In this document: one piece after another, positions 2,089 through 13,794 of the stretch
Layout: every line of letters begins with the position of its first letter
Numbering within the stretch: position 1 is the stretch's first letter
From: a virus
Direction: 5' to 3' (one strand)
DNA: 29,126 nt
IMG/VR virus record: IMGVR_UViG_3300025280_000119
Coordinates: 1 to 29,126 of that record
The notes under the pieces: model-generated
Databases searched by the model: none
What the model was told of the DNA's origin: nothing
Seen by the model: the letters and a program-made list of their open reading frames with translations, nothing else
Made by a program: the position numbers and the translations under genes

Positions 2089-4851
2089 ATGGAATACGTT
2101 ATTCAAAATCTTGATTTTATATCGCTTATATTTGTCAATTTAATGCCATTAATATTGGGCATAGGGATCCTTGATTACTTACCGGGTGGCGGCGGAGGAA
2201 CAAGTGACGTAGAGGAGAATTTCGAAGCTGCGGCAGAAATTGCAGCCCAGGAGGCAATAGATAATCCCTCTATTAACGAAGATTCTAAGGAATATAGTTC
2301 TGTTATTAGACTAAGGGAACAATGTTATTTATTAAAATATTGGCATGTTTTTAACACATGGTCCCAAGCTCACGATTGGGCAAAATTCCACCCAGTAACC
2401 GGCAATCCGGCAACAATAGTAAACATGTTGCGCTCCATTCCTGGTCAAGAAAAATTATTAAATCTCACACCACAGCAACTTTCACTAATGGTGCCAAAAA
2501 TACAAATTTTTAAAACTCTTTTTAGAAATGAGGATGATCCTATAGGAGAAGATTTTCAATTAAAATTTACAAACAATTGGGAAGATCGACCTATAGAACG
2601 AGATGATACTGGAGCCGCCACGGAAGAACGTGGAATGAGCATGGCAGATTATTTATATGAAAGAGGCGGACGGGGCGCAGGCGTAGGGTTAAAAAGTTTT
2701 TCTTTTCAACAACTTGGAGGTAACCCCGCGCAGGTAACAACAAATTTAGTTGCAACACTAAAATTACATTTTCAAAATCTTAATGATTTATTTAAACAAG
2801 CACAAGTGGTAGTGGATAACGATGGGAATGATCATGAAATTAGATTTATTGATTTGGTATCCCCAGTCTCAAAATATCAAGATGATACAGAAGCACCAGG
2901 ATGTCCACAAATATATAATAATGATTACTATAGAATTAAAATAATTTTAGGATGGACGGTGCCCCAGGCTGCAGCATTCGATGGAGATCCGAACTATGAA
3001 GAATTAAAAATAGCGGCAGAAAAAACACAGACTATTTTATTTCTATCGCTTAGACAACACGAGATAGATTTTAAACAAAATGGTACCGTGGAGTTCACTA
3101 TACATTACATTGCTTCGATTGAGGCGGCATTTCAATCTGAAAAAACGAATATCTTGTCCAGTCCCAGCATAGATAAAGCGCTTAAAGAAATAGAAGAGGA
3201 AAAAGATCAATTAAAAGAAGATAAGCAAGAAGCAGAAGCACGGCTGCGAGAACTAGGGCTTGAAGATGGAGATGATGCCGCACCTGACGCTGAGGACGGA
3301 GAGCCCAACACTGCAGAACTGATTCAAGAGCAGATAGAAGCGCTAGACCAACAAGCGAACACGGTTAAATCACAAGCTACTAGAAAAATATTAAATCAAC
3401 TGCACATTAACAATAGAATTAAATATATCGATATCGACAAAACCGAATTAGGATATTCGATGACCACGGACTCATTATTGAGCGATGGTCAAGGTGCTAT
3501 GTCAACTTTAATTTATCAGAATGCTGAAGGTGGCGAGGTGGTTACCTCAATGACCGCAGCAGAAGCAGAAGCACAAGGATATACAGAACAAGCACCATCT
3601 TGGGTTACTGGCGGCGAGACTTCAGCAGGGCAAACCGAGAATGAGGCTATAGAGGAAGACACCAACCGGAGAATTGAAGAACAGGTCGATGGTCCACCCG
3701 CCTCGTCCGCAGATGACTATGACGTATGCCAATCTTGGAATCCTGCCGACTGGTTCGGGAACTGTGACGGTCCATCTCCCGAGCCTAACTCCATGGAGGA
3801 AGTAGCCGAGGCAATTCCTGAAGGCAAACACAGAATATATTATATATATTTTGGTGACATATTAGAATCTGTTTTAGAAATTTTAGACCAAGAAGATCCA
3901 ACCGCTCTTAAGGGAACAGGCATTATGGCAGGACCATTTACGTTTCAAGATATCGCACGGGATGCAAGAGTTGCCATTAATATTGCCGATGTGCCTATTT
4001 CATTAAATTTGTATAGAACGTGGTTCTTAAAAAATGCGAGCTTTAAACGTACTGTATATTTATTAAAATATTTTTTAAGCGATATGCTTAAAAGCTTAAT
4101 TCAACCTGCATTGGGCAAGCAGTGTTGGGATAGAACAGGCGTACCAAGAGCAAATTATAATTTTGCAAATCTATCTGTTGCTTCTACTCCCGAAGGAGCA
4201 GATCCAATTAAAGGATACAGACTAGACAATGCAGCTAAACGAATACCAATAGAAGATATAAAAGGGATTGCTGGATTTGAGGATGTTCACAATACGGCTG
4301 TTTATAGTTACCTACTGCTACAATCTCAAATTGACACCCCCTGTGAAAGAACTGGCGATATAGATGAAGATCAGGATGATGGCATTTTTCATTTAGGGCT
4401 TGGTCAAGATCGCGGACTAGTTAAGCAAATTAAATTTAATAAACTTGATCAGCCAATGGTTCAAGAGGCTCGCATGTCATCAATGGGATCCCATGGATTT
4501 TTACGAGAAGTATATGATGCGAATGTTAGCATGGTGGGCAACACTTTATTTGAACCAGGAGCCAAGCTTTATATAAACCCCTCTATAATGGGACTTAGTT
4601 CTGTGGATGCACGATTTATAGGATTGGGCGGATATTACGACGTTATAACAATAGATAACAATTTGTCACCTTCTAAGTTTGAAACAAATCTGGTTTGTAG
4701 ATGGCAATCAGCCGGTGCTGGATGCGAGGAAGACGAGGACTTCGTTTGCCCCAATCCAGAGACTATAGCGGCAGCAGAACCTGAAACACCTATTACCCAA
4801 GAACAGGCAGAAGTAGAACAGGAACGAGCAGTATTCGAAGGAGACTATTAA
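2089..4851 (+). CDS. Large baseplate/tail structural protein (920 aa)
   Basis: The 920-residue protein opens with a hydrophobic stretch (about residues 8-28) ending in a Gly run, then an acidic region. A charged coiled-coil-like stretch (about 365-430, rich in E, K, Q) and an acidic low-complexity linker follow. The C-terminal 150 residues contain 'GIFHLGLGQDRGLVKQIKFNKLDQPMVQEARM', then 'LREVYDANVSMVGNTLFEPGAKLYINP' and 'GLGGYYDV'. Such strands are typical of phage baseplate/hub proteins that end in a tail-lysozyme-like or gpD-like fold. Four bases separate it from the gp53-like gene. Its length and context suit a baseplate hub or wedge protein. The hydrophobic N-terminus is odd for a virion protein, and a later start is possible, but no better ribosome binding site was found. 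Confidence 0.55.
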   Translation: MEYVIQNLDFISLIFVNLMPLILGIGILDYLPGGGGGTSDVEENFEAAAEIAAQEAIDNPSINEDSKEYSSVIRLREQCYLLKYWHVFNTWSQAHDWAKFHPVTGNPATIVNMLRSIPGQEKLLNLTPQQLSLMVPKIQIFKTLFRNEDDPIGEDFQLKFTNNWEDRPIERDDTGAATEERGMSMADYLYERGGRGAGVGLKSFSFQQLGGNPAQVTTNLVATLKLHFQNLNDLFKQAQVVVDNDGNDHEIRFIDLVSPVSKYQDDTEAPGCPQIYNNDYYRIKIILGWTVPQAAAFDGDPNYEELKIAAEKTQTILFLSLRQHEIDFKQNGTVEFTIHYIASIEAAFQSEKTNILSSPSIDKALKEIEEEKDQLKEDKQEAEARLRELGLEDGDDAAPDAEDGEPNTAELIQEQIEALDQQANTVKSQATRKILNQLHINNRIKYIDIDKTELGYSMTTDSLLSDGQGAMSTLIYQNAEGGEVVTSMTAAEAEAQGYTEQAPSWVTGGETSAGQTENEAIEEDTNRRIEEQVDGPPASSADDYDVCQSWNPADWFGNCDGPSPEPNSMEEVAEAIPEGKHRIYYIYFGDILESVLEILDQEDPTALKGTGIMAGPFTFQDIARDARVAINIADVPISLNLYRTWFLKNASFKRTVYLLKYFLSDMLKSLIQPALGKQCWDRTGVPRANYNFANLSVASTPEGADPIKGYRLDNAAKRIPIEDIKGIAGFEDVHNTAVYSYLLLQSQIDTPCERTGDIDEDQDDGIFHLGLGQDRGLVKQIKFNKLDQPMVQEARMSSMGSHGFLREVYDANVSMVGNTLFEPGAKLYINPSIMGLSSVDARFIGLGGYYDVITIDNNLSPSKFETNLVCRWQSAGAGCEEDEDFVCPNPETIAAAEPETPITQEQAEVEQERAVFEGDY

Positions 4852-8548: not shown

Positions 8549-8577
8549 TTGACAACGCTTATAACATAGGCTATATT
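8549..8577 (+). promoter_or_regulatory. Strong sigma70-like promoter for the SSB operon
   Basis: TTGACA at 8549-8554, a 17-nt spacer and TATATT at 8572-8577. It lies in a true intergenic gap, is preceded by phased A-tracts, and leaves a leader of about 60 nt before the SSB start codon. It is probably the main promoter for the replication operon. Confidence 0.85.
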
Positions 8578-8644: not shown

Positions 8645-9412
8645 ATGGCAATTGATATGAATAAAATGAGGCAGCGTAAAGCTGCTTTGGAAAGCCGTGG
8701 AAGCGGTGGTAATGGGTCGCAGTTTTGGCGTCCACAAGATGGGGAGCAAACAATCCGTATTGTTCCCAACAATGATGGAGATCCTTTCAAGGATTTCTGG
8801 TTTCATTATAATGTAGGAGACAACGCAGGTTTCCTAAGTCCCAAGAAGAATTTCGGAGAAGATGATCCGCTTGATGACTTTGTTCGTAAGCTTTTTAAGG
8901 AAGGCACCGAAGAGAGCATTAAGATGGCGAAAAGCCTTATGGCACGCCAACGGTTTTTTGCTCCGGTAATTGTTCGCGGAGAAGAACATAAGGGAGTCCG
9001 TATTTGGGGATTTGGCAAGATGGTTTACGAACAGTTGATTAATCTTGTGCTTAACCCGGAATATGGCGATATTACTGAACCAGACACAGGAACCGATCTT
9101 GTGCTGCACTATGGCAAGCCCCAAGGCGCGTCATTCCCGCAAACAAAGTTGACTCCTCGTCGTCGTCCCTCGCCGTTATGTGACGATGCCGTAGGTGGTC
9201 CTGATCGATGCGCAGAACTGTTGGAAAACATTCCTGACATTGATACGATGTTTGAGCGTAAAACACCTGATGAGGTGGGTACTATGCTTGATGCATATCT
9301 TCTTGACGAAGAAGGCACCGAGAATGAGTCTAGTGAAACGGTTAAATACAGTGCTACTACTGATGAACCGACTAGTGTAGATGCCGCCTTTAATGAACTA
9401 ATGGGCGCTTAA
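8645..9412 (+). CDS. gp32: Single-stranded DNA-binding protein (gp32-like)
   Basis: The 255-residue protein begins with a basic segment, MNKMRQRKAALESRG (residues 5-19), matching the LAST/self-association N-terminus of T4-type gp32. A core follows with 'FWRPQDGEQTIRIVPN' and 'HYNVGDNAGFLSPKKNFGEDDP', patterns typical of gp32 homologues in T4-like phages. It ends in an acidic tail (about 215-255), which in gp32 recruits replication partners. The Cys3His zinc site of T4 gp32 is not visible: only two cysteines exist (in SPLC and DRC). It is shorter than T4 gp32 (301). It would coat single strands and organise UvsX, helicase and polymerase. The start has a strong ribosome binding site (AAGGAG) and follows the strongest promoter in the window. 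Codon use looks more GC-balanced than in its neighbours, as for a highly expressed gene. Confidence 0.8.
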   Translation: MAIDMNKMRQRKAALESRGSGGNGSQFWRPQDGEQTIRIVPNNDGDPFKDFWFHYNVGDNAGFLSPKKNFGEDDPLDDFVRKLFKEGTEESIKMAKSLMARQRFFAPVIVRGEEHKGVRIWGFGKMVYEQLINLVLNPEYGDITEPDTGTDLVLHYGKPQGASFPQTKLTPRRRPSPLCDDAVGGPDRCAELLENIPDIDTMFERKTPDEVGTMLDAYLLDEEGTENESSETVKYSATTDEPTSVDAAFNELMGA

Positions 9413-9437
9413 TAGTAGTATGCCAAGATCCCGCAGG

Positions 9438-9482
9438 GAGGCACGGGGACGGAAACAAACAAAAGTTTCTAATAGGTGCCTC
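9438..9482 (+). other. Possible hairpin between SSB and uvsX
   Basis: GAGGCAC (9438-9444) can pair with GTGCCTC (9476-9482) around a 31-nt loop, followed by ACATTTTT. It could attenuate transcription between SSB and uvsX, which would explain lower recombinase expression. The long loop and only 7 bp make it weak. It covers the alternative GTG (9476) upstream of the preferred uvsX start. Confidence 0.3.
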
Positions 9483-9505
9483 ACATTTTTAACATCGAGG
9501 ATATA

Positions 9506-10627
9506 ATGAGAATGGCAAAGAACACTTCAAAGCCTGGAAAATTGAGCATAGCAGACATGCGCTCACTTATTAATAAAAGGGCTGGGCAAGAAGTAGCACA
9601 CAATTTAAAAGAAGATAACCCCACAGAAGTAATAGACTGGATTCCCACTGGCTCCAGATGGCTTGATTCGATTGTGTGTCGTGGCAAGCTTGCTGGTATT
9701 CCGCTAGGAAAAACAGTAGAAATTGCAGGCTTAGAGGCGACAGGTAAAAGTTATATGGCGGCACAAATAGCTGCCAATGCTCAAAAAATGGGAATTGATG
9801 TAATTTATTTTGATAGCGAATCTGCAATTGATCCTTCATTTTTGGAAAGAGCAGGATGCGAACTAGACGATTTATTGTATATTCAAGCTACATCTGTTGA
9901 GTTTGTTTTGGAGACTGTAGAAGAATTATTGGGCAGTAATGATAATCGCATGCTGTTCATTTGGGATTCTTTAGCGCTGACACCGGCAATATCGGATATA
10001 GAGGGCGATTTTAACCCACTATCATCTATGGCTGTGAAAGCACGAATCTTAGCTAAAGGCATGTCCAAATTAACAGTTCCAATTGCAAACTCGCAATCAA
10101 CTTTCTTAGTTTTGAACCAGCTTAAGACTAATATTACTCGCTCTCCTTCGGAAGCGATGACCACGCCCTATATGACACCGGGCGGCAAAGCAATGATATA
10201 TGCGTATTCATTGCGTATTTGGCTAACAGGGAGAAAAGCAAAGGCTAGTTTTGTTCTTGATGATAAGGGCTTTCGAATTGGGTCCGAAGTTAAGGTTAAA
10301 TTAGAAAAATCACGCTTTGGGACACAAGGAAGACAATGTAATTTTAGAATCTTATGGGGATCTGAAATTGGTGTGCAAGACGAAGAATCATGGTTCGACG
10401 CTATTGGATCATCCGACAGACTGTTGCGTACTGGAGCATGGTACACACTTCTAGACAAACAGGGCGAACCAATTGGAAGTAAATTCCAGGCAAGCAAATG
10501 GGCTGAAAAGCTATCAGATGAAGAATTTCGTGCAAACGTTTTAGACATCATGGACGAAGAAGTAATTATGAAATTTGATAAACGCGAAGGAGATGCAGAA
10601 GAATTTTATGGAGAAGAAGGAATATAA
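9506..10627 (+). CDS. uvsX: UvsX/RecA-family recombinase
   Basis: From ATG 9506 (ribosome binding site GAGG at 9497-9500) the protein has 373 residues; an in-frame GTG at 9476 would add ten. Walker A is GLEATGKS (residues 75-82), Walker B is MLFIWDS, and the RecA core includes YFDSESAID, a Gln-containing strand LVLNQLKTN and the L2-like 'TTPYMTPGGKAMIYAYSLRIWL'. These order and spacing features fit T4 UvsX and phage RecA-like proteins. The C-terminus is acidic (DAEEFYGEEGI). It would form a filament on ssDNA, driving strand exchange and recombination-dependent replication together with the gp32-like SSB just upstream. Its stop overlaps the start of the next gene (TAATG). Confidence 0.92.
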   Translation: MRMAKNTSKPGKLSIADMRSLINKRAGQEVAHNLKEDNPTEVIDWIPTGSRWLDSIVCRGKLAGIPLGKTVEIAGLEATGKSYMAAQIAANAQKMGIDVIYFDSESAIDPSFLERAGCELDDLLYIQATSVEFVLETVEELLGSNDNRMLFIWDSLALTPAISDIEGDFNPLSSMAVKARILAKGMSKLTVPIANSQSTFLVLNQLKTNITRSPSEAMTTPYMTPGGKAMIYAYSLRIWLTGRKAKASFVLDDKGFRIGSEVKVKLEKSRFGTQGRQCNFRILWGSEIGVQDEESWFDAIGSSDRLLRTGAWYTLLDKQGEPIGSKFQASKWAEKLSDEEFRANVLDIMDEEVIMKFDKREGDAEEFYGEEGI

Positions 10628-10866
10628 TGTCTACTGAAAAAAAGAATAAAGTTTGGAAACGTTCAGGCATCTTTGATACATACGAAGAAGCCGCAGAAAG
10701 AAAAGAGTCGCTTATTTCTGGTGACAAATCGGCGGATCTGGCGACAAATCGTGCGGATCTTCTTGTGAAGATTAAAAGATATGGCAAAGGGTACAATAAA
10801 TTTCAAGTCAAGTATTGGCATCCAGATTTTGTAACTCTTGCTAAAAAGAAAAAGCGAAATAAATAA
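10627..10866 (+). CDS. Small basic protein of unknown function
   Basis: This 79-residue protein is strongly basic: it opens MSTEKKNKVWKRSG and ends LAKKKKRNK. The sequence 'GIFDTYEEAAERKESL' followed by 'VKIKRYGKGYNKFQVKYW' suggests a small alpha-beta domain of the SPOR-like or nucleic-acid-associated kind, but no family is assigned. The start codon overlaps the uvsX stop by one base (TAATG), so it is translationally coupled to the recombinase. That and the charge make a DNA- or recombinase-associated accessory role plausible; this is inference. Confidence 0.65.
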   Translation: MSTEKKNKVWKRSGIFDTYEEAAERKESLISGDKSADLATNRADLLVKIKRYGKGYNKFQVKYWHPDFVTLAKKKKRNK

Positions 10867-10919
10867 TATTATAATGAATATTACTAGTTATAATACGTCT
10901 AATTTAGAAAGGAGATAAG

Positions 10920-11246
10920 ATGAGATCTACAATCATGATTTTTGCTGCACTCTTGCTGTCGGCAAATACTGGATGTGTTGCATCAGCGCATGCACACCCC
11001 GTGCGACCAGCAGTAACGGCTCCACCACCGCCTGCACATGTAAATGTGCGTGCTTGGGTATGGCTCGATGGTCATTGGGGTCCGCATGGCTGGGTACGTG
11101 CACATTGGGTGCTTAGAGTGGTACCAACCACTCACTTTGGGCATCATCCCAATACTCACGTAAGATACGTAGCTGGTCGCCCACCCCCGCGCCAACACCC
11201 CCGTGCGCATCAACACCGCCAGCATCGCCATCGGCACACCCGCTAA
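10920..11246 (+). CDS. Secreted His/Pro-rich WxxGxW-type protein
   Basis: The 108-residue protein starts with a signal peptide (about residues 1-23; hydrophobic IMIFAALLLSANTG). A Cys at residue 19 gives only a poor lipobox (NTGC), so either lipoprotein or free secreted protein is possible. The centre is 'WVWLDGHWGPHGWVRAHWV', the Trp/Gly/His motif of bacterial WxxGxW-repeat periplasmic proteins. The last 40 residues are almost all His, Arg, Pro and Gln, which suggests metal or polyanion binding. It has a strong ribosome binding site (AAAGGAG, about 10908-10914) and is more GC-rich than its neighbours. A secreted protein amid replication genes looks like an acquired accessory (moron-type) gene. 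Its function is unknown. Confidence 0.65.
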   Translation: MRSTIMIFAALLLSANTGCVASAHAHPVRPAVTAPPPPAHVNVRAWVWLDGHWGPHGWVRAHWVLRVVPTTHFGHHPNTHVRYVAGRPPPRQHPRAHQHRQHRHRHTR

Positions 11247-11247
11247 T

Positions 11248-11284
11248 TGTCAAGTAAGTGTAAATTGTATTTAAATACTTGACA
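11248..11284 (+). promoter_or_regulatory. 9-bp inverted repeat overlapping the -35 box
   Basis: TGTCAAGTA at 11248-11256 is the exact reverse complement of TACTTGACA at 11276-11284, separated by 19 nt. The right arm contains the -35 hexamer TTGACA. The half-site spacing of about 28 bp, centre to centre, is close to three helical turns, so a dimeric regulator could bind here. No regulator is assigned. Confidence 0.45.
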
Positions 11285-11307
11285 GGAGCCTCCAACTATA
11301 GTAAAAT
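11279..11307 (+). promoter_or_regulatory. Sigma70-like promoter for the deaminase operon
   Basis: TTGACA at 11279-11284, a 17-nt spacer and TAAAAT at 11302-11307. The predicted transcript would start near 11313-11315, only about 16 nt before the ATG, so its ribosome binding site sits at the extreme 5' end. The promoter is interleaved with the hairpin at 11287-11320. Confidence 0.8.
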
Positions 11308-11320
11308 ATAGTTGGAGGCT
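11287..11320 (+). promoter_or_regulatory. 14-bp perfect hairpin enclosing -10 box and sequestering the RBS
   Basis: Bases 11287-11300 pair perfectly with 11307-11320 around a 6-nt loop. The loop holds most of the -10 box, and the 3' arm contains the GGAGG ribosome binding site (11314-11318) of the gene starting at 11330. A transcript from the local promoter would begin after the 5' arm and could not form the stem, while read-through RNA from upstream would form it and hide the binding site. T4 genes e and soc are known to use this logic. A short TTT follows, so weak termination is also possible. Confidence 0.75.
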
Positions 11321-11329
11321 TTGCTATCT

Positions 11330-11740
11330 ATGAAACACGAAAAGATTAAAAATTCTAAACGAACACAAAGGTTCATATCGTTGGCTAAAAATATAGCCAC
11401 GTCATCCGACTCTAAAGACTATAGACACGGCGCAGTGCTTGTAAAAGGATCCAATATCATTAATAGCGCAACCAATAAGAACAGTCATGCTAGGTTTGGA
11501 AAACGATTTAGAAAGAGAGATTGTGGGCACACTACACACCATGCCGAACTTGGTTGCGTGCTTGGCATTGACAGATCTGTGACCAAAGGCTCTGTCATAT
11601 ATGTATCTAGAATTGGCAAAAGAGGCGAACTAAGAATGTCGAAGCCGTGTGAAATGTGCGAAGCTATTTTGAAGCATGTCGGCGTTAAAAAAGTAATTTA
11701 TTCTATCAATGAAGAAGAAGTCGGATATTATAACCTATGA
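11330..11740 (+). CDS. Zinc-dependent cytidine/deoxycytidylate deaminase family protein
   Basis: The 136-residue protein has both zinc-site motifs of the cytidine-deaminase fold: His71-Ala-Glu73 (in THHAELG) and Pro106-Cys-Glu-Met-Cys110 (SKPCEMCEAIL). The N-terminal strand 'YRHGAVLVKGSNIINSATN' also fits. The substrate is not fixed by these motifs; next to RNR and dUTPase genes, dCMP-to-dUMP conversion is the natural guess. It is shorter than T4 dCMP deaminase (193). ATG 11330 is preferred over the in-frame TTG at 11312, because that TTG lies in the hairpin and GGAGG is 11 nt before the ATG. It has its own promoter and overlaps the next gene by 4 bases. Confidence 0.75.
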   Translation: MKHEKIKNSKRTQRFISLAKNIATSSDSKDYRHGAVLVKGSNIINSATNKNSHARFGKRFRKRDCGHTTHHAELGCVLGIDRSVTKGSVIYVSRIGKRGELRMSKPCEMCEAILKHVGVKKVIYSINEEEVGYYNL

Positions 11741-11979
11741 GTAAGAAAAGAATTAAATTTCGCGTTGGTGATTTGCTCGTTAAATACGATAATGGTATTC
11801 CAGAGCAAGCAATATTGCATAAAAAACACTCTCCTTATTTTAACGAAGAAAAAGAAAGAAAGATTCCGGCTATGTGGGAACTATTGGGCTGGGGATTCCA
11901 GTACCATAAGATACTTGAAAGCTTTTTGAAGACACAGATCGAAAAAGAACTAATCGACTACTATCCAGCAAAAAAATGA
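11737..11979 (+). CDS. Small conserved-looking phage protein, unknown
   Basis: This 80-residue soluble, charged protein begins MSKKRIKFRVGDLLVKYDNG, resembling a short beta-barrel lead-in (RVGD.LV). An aromatic 'MWELLGWGFQYHKILESFLK' helix follows. No family is recognised and there are no membrane segments. The ATGA overlaps at both ends (4 bases with the deaminase, 4 with RNase H) show tight translational coupling and support it as a real gene. Confidence 0.65.
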   Translation: MSKKRIKFRVGDLLVKYDNGIPEQAILHKKHSPYFNEEKERKIPAMWELLGWGFQYHKILESFLKTQIEKELIDYYPAKK

Positions 11980-12944
11980 AACGATTGTTAATTATTGATG
12001 CTCTAAATATGTATTTTAGAGCCTATATTGTGGACCCTAGTTTGTCTACCAATGGGCAACCAATTGGTGGCGTTAAGGGATTTATAAAAATCATGCAAAA
12101 GCTTGTGCGAGACACAAAGCCAGATGAAATTGTTATTTGTTGGGATGGAGAGGGCGGAAGCCAACGAAGAAAATCACATAATAAAAATTACAAAGAAGGA
12201 AGAAAACCAATTCGCCTCAATAGAGATATAAGAAATTTATCTGAAAACGAAGAATTGGAAAACAAAATTTGGCAACAGACCAGATTAATAGAATATTTAA
12301 ATCAACTACCCATTATTCAGCTTATGTTACCTTCTGTTGAGGCAGACGATATCATTAGCCTTGTAGCGCAAATGCCCGAGTATAAGGGGTGGCAAAAAGT
12401 TATTGTATCTTCCGATAAAGACTTCTTTCAGCTTTGCGATGGCGAAACTGTAATTTTGCGACCAATTCAAAAACAAATTGTAAATAAACACTCTATAACT
12501 AAAGACTATGGAATCCATCCAGTAAATTTTGCACTAGCCAGAGCAATTACGGGCGATATATCCGATAACCTTAAAGGCGTCCAAGGCGTCGGGCTTCCAA
12601 CTATTGCTAAAAGATTGCCATTTTTGTCGGAGGAAAAAAGTTATACTATTTCCGAAGTTATCGGCTACTGTCAAAAAATTGACTCTAATCTTAAGGCTTA
12701 TAAAACAATTGGCGAAAATACAGACTTAATAGAACAAAATTATAAACTAATGCAACTCTATGCACCATTTATCAGCGTTCAAGGGAAAAGCCAAATTAGA
12801 TATGCAGTCAACAATTTCGCTCCCGAGCTAATCAAAACCACCTTTCTCTCAATGATGATTCAGGACGGATTTGGAGTGGTGGATTTTTCAGATCTTTTGG
12901 CAACAATGAAAAGAATTGTTGCAGATTCTAAACAGAAAAACTAA
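11976..12944 (+). CDS. rnh: 5'-3' exonuclease / T4-type RNase H (FEN family)
   Basis: The 322-residue protein shows the PIN/FEN nuclease acidic motifs in order: IDALNMYFRA (Asp8), 'VICWDGEGGSQRRK' (about 49-62), 'SVEADDIISL' (about 115-124) and 'VSSDKDFFQL'. The helix-hairpin-helix region follows as 'GDISDNLKGVQGVG.PTIAKR'. Length and order match T4 RNase H (305 residues), which removes RNA primers and flaps from lagging strands. The start overlaps the previous gene by 4 bases. It would work with the SSB, helicase and polymerases encoded here. I am confident of the family; primer removal is inferred from the T4 system. Confidence 0.9.
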   Translation: MKRLLIIDALNMYFRAYIVDPSLSTNGQPIGGVKGFIKIMQKLVRDTKPDEIVICWDGEGGSQRRKSHNKNYKEGRKPIRLNRDIRNLSENEELENKIWQQTRLIEYLNQLPIIQLMLPSVEADDIISLVAQMPEYKGWQKVIVSSDKDFFQLCDGETVILRPIQKQIVNKHSITKDYGIHPVNFALARAITGDISDNLKGVQGVGLPTIAKRLPFLSEEKSYTISEVIGYCQKIDSNLKAYKTIGENTDLIEQNYKLMQLYAPFISVQGKSQIRYAVNNFAPELIKTTFLSMMIQDGFGVVDFSDLLATMKRIVADSKQKN

Positions 12945-12951
12945 TTATAAC

Positions 12952-13794
12952 ATGAAAACAGTATTTGACAATTGGCGCTTAACATTTAGCGGCATAGAAG
13001 AAAGTAAATTTATAGAATCAGATTTATTGGTAAATAATTGGAAAAACTATTTGCTGGAAGAAGTGGCACCTCTGGATATTGATCTTTCTAGTTTTGAATT
13101 GCAAGACGATTTTAATAGAAAAGTTTGGACCGAAGAGGATGATAAAATAAATCCCGATGCAAGAGACAACATGCTACAAATTGCTCAAGATTTTTGGGAT
13201 TCTCTAGAGCTTGAAGAGGTTGAAATATTAGATATTACACTGACCGGCTCATTATCCAATTATAATTGGTCACAATATTCGGATGCAGATCTGCACATTA
13301 TTATTGATTTAGCCGATATTAACGTAGATGTGGGTTTAGTTAGAGAATTTCTAAATGCTAAAAAATCCATATGGAACAGAGTTCATGACATCTACATTAA
13401 AGGATTTGAGGTTGAAATTTATGTTCAAGGACATGATGACCCGCATGAATCATCTGGTGTATATTCTATTTTAAATGATGAATGGGTTAAAAAACCAATC
13501 AGAGAAGAATATACTCTAGATAGAGACAATATACAGCTTAAAGCAGCGTCTTTGATAGATCAAATTGATCGAGTTGACGGCTTAATAGAAAAGGGCGAAT
13601 ATAAAGAAGCGCACGATTATGCTGAAAAGATAAAAAATAAAATTAGAAAAATGAGACAATCGGGGCTCGATGAGAAGGGAATATACTCTGTTGAAAATCT
13701 AGCCTTTAAGGTTTTACGAAGAACAGAATATTTAGAAAAATTATCTGATTTAAAATCAGAAGCATATGATTTAATGATGTCCATAAAGCAGTAA
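12952..13794 (+). CDS. Predicted nucleotidyltransferase (pol beta fold)
   Basis: From ATG 12952 the protein has 280 residues. It carries the nucleotidyltransferase signature TGSLSNYNW..YSDADLHI: Gly-Ser at 99-100 and Asp111-x-Asp113, followed about 50 residues later by the 'EVEIYVQ' strand that may hold the third acidic residue. The C-terminal third is helical and charged. The acceptor is unknown; members of this fold modify tRNA, proteins or antibiotics. It is not a toxin-antitoxin MNT/HEPN pair, as no HEPN partner is adjacent. The in-frame TTG at 12916 is less likely, as it lies in the RNase H gene. There is no clear ribosome binding site; the start context AATTATAACATG recurs at the tubulin-like gene. 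Confidence 0.65.
   Translation: MKTVFDNWRLTFSGIEESKFIESDLLVNNWKNYLLEEVAPLDIDLSSFELQDDFNRKVWTEEDDKINPDARDNMLQIAQDFWDSLELEEVEILDITLTGSLSNYNWSQYSDADLHIIIDLADINVDVGLVREFLNAKKSIWNRVHDIYIKGFEVEIYVQGHDDPHESSGVYSILNDEWVKKPIREEYTLDRDNIQLKAASLIDQIDRVDGLIEKGEYKEAHDYAEKIKNKIRKMRQSGLDEKGIYSVENLAFKVLRRTEYLEKLSDLKSEAYDLMMSIKQ

Follow-up and report, generated by a model that had tools for sequence, protein, structure and literature searches.

What does a promoter achieve whose -10 box lies in the loop of a hairpin, when the same hairpin hides the ribosome-binding site of the gene that the promoter serves? Such an arrangement precedes a deaminase gene in the virus record analysed here (29,126 bases, hereafter the window, on which all coordinates are given). 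A perfect 14-bp inverted repeat, with arms at 11287-11300 and 11307-11320 and a 6-nt loop at 11301-11306, is interleaved with a sigma70-like promoter on the plus strand, in which the -35 box TTGACA (11279-11284) and the -10 box TAAAAT (11302-11307) are separated by 17 nt and match the consensus at 11 of 12 positions. The 5' arm takes up most of the promoter spacer and would be absent from RNA started locally, and the 3' arm is for the most part the leader of the local transcript and contains the Shine-Dalgarno sequence (SD) GGAGG (11314-11318), just as a previous sequence-only reading had described. That reading also placed the -10 box in the loop, which is correct for five of its six bases, the sixth (T11307) opening the 3' arm and taking part in the first pair. 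From the position of the boxes we infer a transcription start at about 11313-11315. The ATG of the deaminase lies at 11330, which leaves a longish spacing of 11 nt after GGAGG, and the tail following the stem, TTTGCTATCT (11320-11329), is a weak U tract, surpassed in many relatives.

The 14-bp repeat is not a product of chance. Perfect inverted repeats of at least 12 bp (loop 3-30) occur twice in the window as against a mean of 0.33 in 12 dinucleotide shuffles, none of which held a repeat of at least 14 bp. The other one, a 17-bp repeat with a loop of 3 at the very end of the contig (1-37), may have arisen as an artefact at the end of the assembly or be a genuine terminator-like stem. When folded as RNA, the promoter hairpin reaches -36.2 kcal/mol, compared with -16.5 (sd 3.1) in shuffles, none of the 200 being as low, and RNA from 11314 onward folds without such a stem. 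A search of Rfam gave no family at the gathering score. The sequence-only reading had further proposed that a second, 9-bp repeat covers the -35 box. This repeat does exist (11248-11284, plus strand; arms 11248-11256 and 11276-11284), but it is one of eight repeats of at least 9 bp in the window against 4.4 in shuffles, so that it is unremarkable, and we dropped it as a functional element; since the upstream gene ends 2-32 nt ahead of the -35 box, most relatives would have no room for it.

The genes around the element, all on the plus strand, suggest where read-through RNA would come from. A sigma70-like promoter, TTGACA-17 nt-TATATT (8549-8577), which has no strong stem (score 12.5), stands before the gene of a gp32-like single-strand DNA-binding protein (SSB; 8645-9412, PF08804, phrog_1192) and is likely to be the source of this RNA; the UvsX-like recombinase gene follows (9476-10627, PF00154, phrog_97), and a simple scan of the plus strand from 9000 to the hairpin found no terminator-like sites. 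Two small ORFs lie between the UvsX-like gene and the deaminase. The gene directly upstream of the element (10920-11246) encodes a small secreted His-rich protein with Trp-rich stretches, e.g. WLDGHWGPHGW, without a Pfam or PHROG match; many relatives have a similar small protein ahead of the deaminase. The deaminase itself (11330-11740) scores over the cut-off of PF00383 and carries HAE and PCxxC, which we take to be the zinc motifs of such enzymes; H71, E73, C107 and C110 are invariant. A search with its structure model (mean pLDDT 85) by Foldseek gave T4 dCMP deaminase as the best match (E 6.4e-5), followed by a plant cytidine deaminase and further dCMP deaminases, among them the one of phage S-TIM5. 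The earlier assignment of a nucleotide deaminase behind a sigma70-like promoter is in keeping with all this, and the modelled fold points to a zinc deaminase of the dCMP/cytidine-deaminase family. The stop of the deaminase is overlapped by the start (ATGA) of another small ORF (11737-11979), as it is by the next start in 27 of the 42 readable loci of relatives, and the stop of that ORF is overlapped in the same way (ATGA) by the start of a 5'-3' exonuclease gene (11976-12944, PF02739). Judging from the overlap, the small ORF is likely to be translationally coupled to the deaminase.

We consider it rather likely that the site at which an RNA started decides, through the element, whether the deaminase is translated from it. 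A polymerase arriving from the SSB/uvsX side would transcribe both arms, and the stem formed in the read-through RNA would pair the SD and block initiation; with a good U tract, the same stem would also end most of the upstream transcripts. The nested promoter would instead start transcription inside the 3' arm and give RNA without the 5' arm, in which the SD is free and from which the deaminase could be made. The next two genes in the window, being ATGA-overlapped, would share its fate by coupling, and the benefit might be that expression is set by the gene's own promoter alone. Folding predictions agree with such a switch: for the 37 hairpins described below, the probability that the SD is unpaired is 0.03 in the read-through RNA and 0.52 in the local RNA, taken to start 7 nt after the -10 box, and the local value is the higher one in all 37. 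Several points count against it. The local RNA would have its SD at the extreme 5' end, a possible handicap; the gap between GGAGG and the ATG is 11 nt in the window; the U-rich tails presented below could mean that much of the conservation is for termination; and some deaminase loci, listed below, fit no design or have no recognised promoter.

If the pairing matters, it should be kept in relatives. In IMG/VR a first search found 27 relatives and a profile search 506, the best 80 of which were fetched, and most of the fetched relatives showed the promoter-in-hairpin layout before the deaminase with different arm sequences. Because our MAFFT alignment (A2) misregisters the arms, we used an alignment-free swap test in place of a covariation count: promoters were picked by their -35/-10 match alone (107 loci, 100 with a promoter, 41 nonredundant), and each 5' side was paired with every other 3' side. 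The mean stem score of the 41 native pairs was 24.35, whereas permuted pairs gave 14.08 (sd 0.56) with a maximum of 16.1 in 2000 permutations, and for 20 of the 41 no foreign partner scored as high as the native one. With 30 control promoters of other genes, the native score was 11.58 versus 10.87 (sd 0.41) and no stem reached 20. Thus, pairing has been kept despite sequence change, and this is a property of the deaminase promoter, not of promoters at large. The stem threshold of 20 and an 80% identity filter were our own choices, and three loci whose match lay too close to the contig end (L026, L219 and L226) were excluded both from this test and from the survey of hairpin and leaderless loci below.

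For a description of the hairpins, a set of 43 loci was assembled from 33 of the 41 swap-test loci, L017 with its promoter corrected, and 9 of 14 loci found by pattern; L017 as first called, L021, L023, L027, L227, L229, L230 and L186 were dropped by hand for having no convincing hairpin or a wrong promoter. The stem score is at least 20 in 37 of the 43 (29 found via protein homology and 8 via a pattern containing CCTCC and GGAGG), a count that includes L209, which is really leaderless. In these 37 hairpins, the 3' arm holds the SD in 35 and has more G than C in every case, and the spacer is 17 nt in 35. The upstream gene, taken as the longest open frame by our script, is co-directional and ends 2-32 nt from the -35 box at all 43 loci, so that read-through is likely unless termination occurs. 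The strongest promoter hairpin of each of the contigs G001, G002, G004, G005, G006 and G008 is that of the deaminase promoter (25.5-39.5), the next best scoring 20 or below except in G005, where this palindrome read in reverse scores more; the deaminase promoter of G003 fell under the promoter threshold and was not recovered in this ranking. A T4-type Gp23 capsid gene is present in all six large contigs with a relative and in the 30.7-kb contig G008, i.e. in 7 of the 8 records searched, and none was found in the window itself; we therefore regard these phages as T4-like myoviruses.

A stem with such a position could also end transcription. The six bases after the stem contain on average 4.24 T in the 37 deaminase hairpins, with at least four T in 30 of them, and 3.91 T in 32 hairpins before other genes, which were pattern-selected and hand-picked from the stronger rows and so have the SD position built in; the corresponding figure behind the SD of 514 control genes is 1.57 (Mann-Whitney p 5e-20 and 8e-13). 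A terminator score is above 0 in 27 of the 37 hairpins including that of the window (18.5). On these grounds the element is probably terminator, promoter and ribosome-binding site in one, with a terminator share that varies among loci. One may go further and suppose that the hairpin is chiefly the intrinsic terminator of the uvsX operon, the next promoter having been squeezed into its loop and the masking of the SD being a side effect of the crowded 60-nt gap. The tails, the scores and the placement at a co-directional boundary at 43 of 43 loci would all suit such a terminator, but L217, L161, L182 and L017 have few T after the stem and no U tract, and the window's tail, TTTGCTAT, is weak and drew no call in the simple terminator scan. 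Nor need a terminator put its 3' arm on the SD: in phage RB49 several terminators simply precede a promoter, and the few stems that surround a -10 box there mostly have their G-rich side 5' and leave the SD outside.

Relatives without a hairpin bear on the same question. After two more profile searches, our survey comprised 193 loci, 75 of them nonredundant, which a script divided into 28 with a hairpin, 9 with a weak or doubtful one, 21 leaderless, 5 with neither and 12 without a recognised promoter; the script misses a few hairpins that are seen by eye, such as those of L188 (filed without promoter) and L017 (filed as neither). Among the 21 filed as leaderless, the ATG coincides exactly with the predicted +1, the seventh base past the -10 box, in 16 (L186, L209, L021, L023, L453, L454, L456, L458, L460, L463, L466, L468, L469, L475, L508 and L511), none of which has an SD, and with the sixth base in one; the other four, whose ATG stands at base nine or ten, are doubtful, and among them L166 and L515 have stems by eye. 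An ATG at the predicted +1 was thus found at 16 of 63 nonredundant deaminase promoters versus 2 of 65 control genes treated by a like procedure, and in the large genomes at none of 30 strict promoters, the genes of which start 16-55 nt away. The SD energy of the 17 leaderless starts, these 16 together with the start at the sixth base, averages -0.87 kcal/mol, which amounts to no SD when compared with -1.81 at random positions and -5.18 in 646 control genes, whereas 36 hairpin leaders have -9.66 kcal/mol, a very strong SD. On a tree of 46 deaminases, the leaderless label takes three changes, one of which is forced by well-supported branches.

We predict that these hairpin-less relatives make leaderless mRNA, of which lambda cI transcribed from PRM is an example; as there, the ATG would be the first transcribed base and no SD is present. 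What differs from leaderless mRNA elsewhere is that here it is an alternative to an SD-locking hairpin before the same gene. A leaderless start should keep read-through RNA silent without any hairpin or terminator, and that the leaderless relatives have no terminator counts against a hairpin that is chiefly a terminator, a view which we hold to be unlikely. That two designs would follow the same rule, to translate only if transcription began here, is the main argument that translation, and not termination alone, is under selection. Tentatively, we suggest as a possible generalisation that a large group of T4-like marine phages ties translation of the deaminase and its coupled neighbours to the start site by two unrelated devices, namely a very strong SD locked by a hairpin that holds the promoter or, where there is no SD at all, a leaderless start, so that the rule is conserved and the sequence is not; this would point to a cost of making the deaminase from uvsX-operon RNA.

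The palindrome could act as DNA, either as an operator or as a cruciform that forms under supercoiling to expose or conceal the -10 box, with the RNA structure being incidental. Although the repeat covers the spacer, the -10 box and the start region, a suitable place for either, we find this very improbable: the arm sequences vary widely across relatives while their pairing is kept, which argues against a sequence-specific operator, and a cruciform leaves unexplained why the G-rich SD side is always the 3' arm (37 of 37) and why the hairpin-free relatives are leaderless and lack an SD. It is scarcely credible that the hairpin is an RNA operator which a phage translational repressor, another protein or a ligand opens or closes, for although RegA and gp43 act through RNA operators at translation starts in T4 phages (PMC3014915), no loop or arm sequence is conserved here apart from the promoter and the SD, and a bound factor would not require the -10 box in the loop. 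The sequence-only claim that read-through RNA is silenced and promoter-started RNA is translatable finds good support in the recurrence of the hairpin, the compensatory changes in its arms, the SD in the 3' arm, the predicted accessibility and the leaderless alternative; it has to be widened in that termination is probably part of the job, given the U-rich tract in most relatives, and the start and the silencing are what we infer from these features.

The logic of start-site-dependent translation is known from T4 and its relatives. According to two published descriptions (PMC3014915, PMC2988022), RNA of the genes e, soc, 49, I-TevI/II/III, segB and Aeh1 mobE that started upstream folds over the SD, whereas a promoter at the 5' strand of the stem yields RNA without that strand, which is translated; this nested promoter belongs to the late class of the phage, and early expression is prevented. 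These accounts uphold the likeness to e and soc which had been drawn from the sequence, including the sigma70-like promoter as the point of difference. As in those genes, a predicted read-through stem covers the SD, which in 35 of 37 relatives is part of the 3' arm, and a nested promoter would, from the position of its -35 and -10 boxes, give RNA without the 5' strand. Unlike those promoters, the one described here is not of the late class but sigma70-like, with both boxes and a 17-nt spacer; moreover, it serves a nucleotide deaminase gene, a U-rich tail is found in most members, and leaderless starts take the place of the hairpin in relatives.

Related arrangements exist elsewhere. The PeSL cassettes of the T4-type phages RB49 and phi1, which occur many times per genome, join a sigma70-like promoter with a terminator stem-loop. 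The present element likewise has a sigma70-like promoter, and its U tail is weak in the window and strong in many relatives; there is one strong promoter hairpin in each large genome and one in the window. In RB49 (L446), several terminators lie directly before a promoter within positions 1-50000, and the promoters at 3201, 42355, 39130 and 36985 have the -10 box within a stem (scores 20-29) whose G-rich arm is mostly the 5' one, with the SD outside; in the element described here, the G-rich SD arm is the 3' side. In IS10 and IS50, read-through RNA from flanking DNA is said to hide the ribosome-binding site of the transposase, while the element's own promoter gives an open RNA, but this happens at a transposon end and not at a phage operon boundary. 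We found no description of the promoter-hairpin layout with sigma70-type promoters in phages in the open-access papers searched, which is weak evidence of novelty.

Isolated phages offered little for comparison. A blastn search with window positions 9400-13000 against 50,697 phage records found no close isolate, the deaminases of isolates (156 records) were all below 60% identity, and searches with the elements of L379 and L295 gave no useful isolate. The two relatives in bacterial genomes were both on MAG contigs, and no hairpin was recognised in them. Judged by annotation only, the deaminase follows closely on the upstream gene in three of five isolates and after a gap of ~90 nt in a fourth, the fifth record being unannotated, so the promoter-hairpin layout is not general for phage deaminases.

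The layout, for its part, is not confined to the deaminase, which the sequence-only reading had named as the gene under the element; this holds in the window, but other genes take that place in relatives. Two DNA patterns that require CCTCC in the promoter spacer and GGAGG downstream of the -10 box matched 98 and 87 stretches in IMG/VR, whereas a control differing by one base (CCACC for CCTCC) matched 6 against the 98. The stem score was at least 20 at 77 of the 127 distinct pattern sites, 27 of these being before a deaminase; the pattern imposes a 5-bp match, and part of the weaker sites may be due to chance. Ten proteins encoded behind other such hairpins were scanned, two of which had no family, and the rest included UvdE, pyrimidine dimer glycosylase, RNase H, a sigma-70 family protein, an SbcCD-like protein, a phosphoesterase and adenylosuccinate synthetase. 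The adenylosuccinate synthetase-like gene (PF00709, with a weaker match to PurZ) lies at L142:11118-12165 (+), G007, behind the same type of promoter hairpin. If translation does depend on the start site, the T4 late-gene trick would extend to sigma70-type promoters and be widespread in uncultured ocean phages, before the deaminase as well as UvdE, RNase H, a sigma factor and adenylosuccinate synthetase. That one promoter exists in a hairpin and a leaderless form would then be a natural experiment on two ways of tying translation to the transcription start, and the ~60 nt with terminator, promoter and ribosome-binding site would make a compact part that should shield a gene from transcription arriving from upstream.

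Strong promoter hairpins also form a second recurrent family, which stands before a small M78-peptidase-like protein (L379, L408, L407, L373, L412 and L374); the L379 protein had no tblastn match in phage records. In eight contigs, TTGACW-17-TATANT occurs at 53 sites, on one strand per contig, and the reversed pattern at 2, a strand bias that makes these sites very likely to be real phage promoters. The T4 late box TATAAATA showed no consistent coding-strand bias in these phages. Another motif, ACTADTTAT, stands shortly before genes at 95 coding-strand versus 6 other-strand sites in eight contigs; from this bias, it is likely to be a second promoter class of these phages and possibly a late one. 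We had considered a mirror image of T4, in which the deaminase is expressed early only and late RNA reads through, and dropped it as a general rule, as ACTADTTAT lies within 1.5 kb upstream at 4 of the 43 deaminase loci. Copies of this strand-biased intergenic motif are present in G001-G006 and G008 and, in the window, at 10883-10891 (ACTAGTTAT, plus strand), a possible promoter of the second class, and at 12940-12948.
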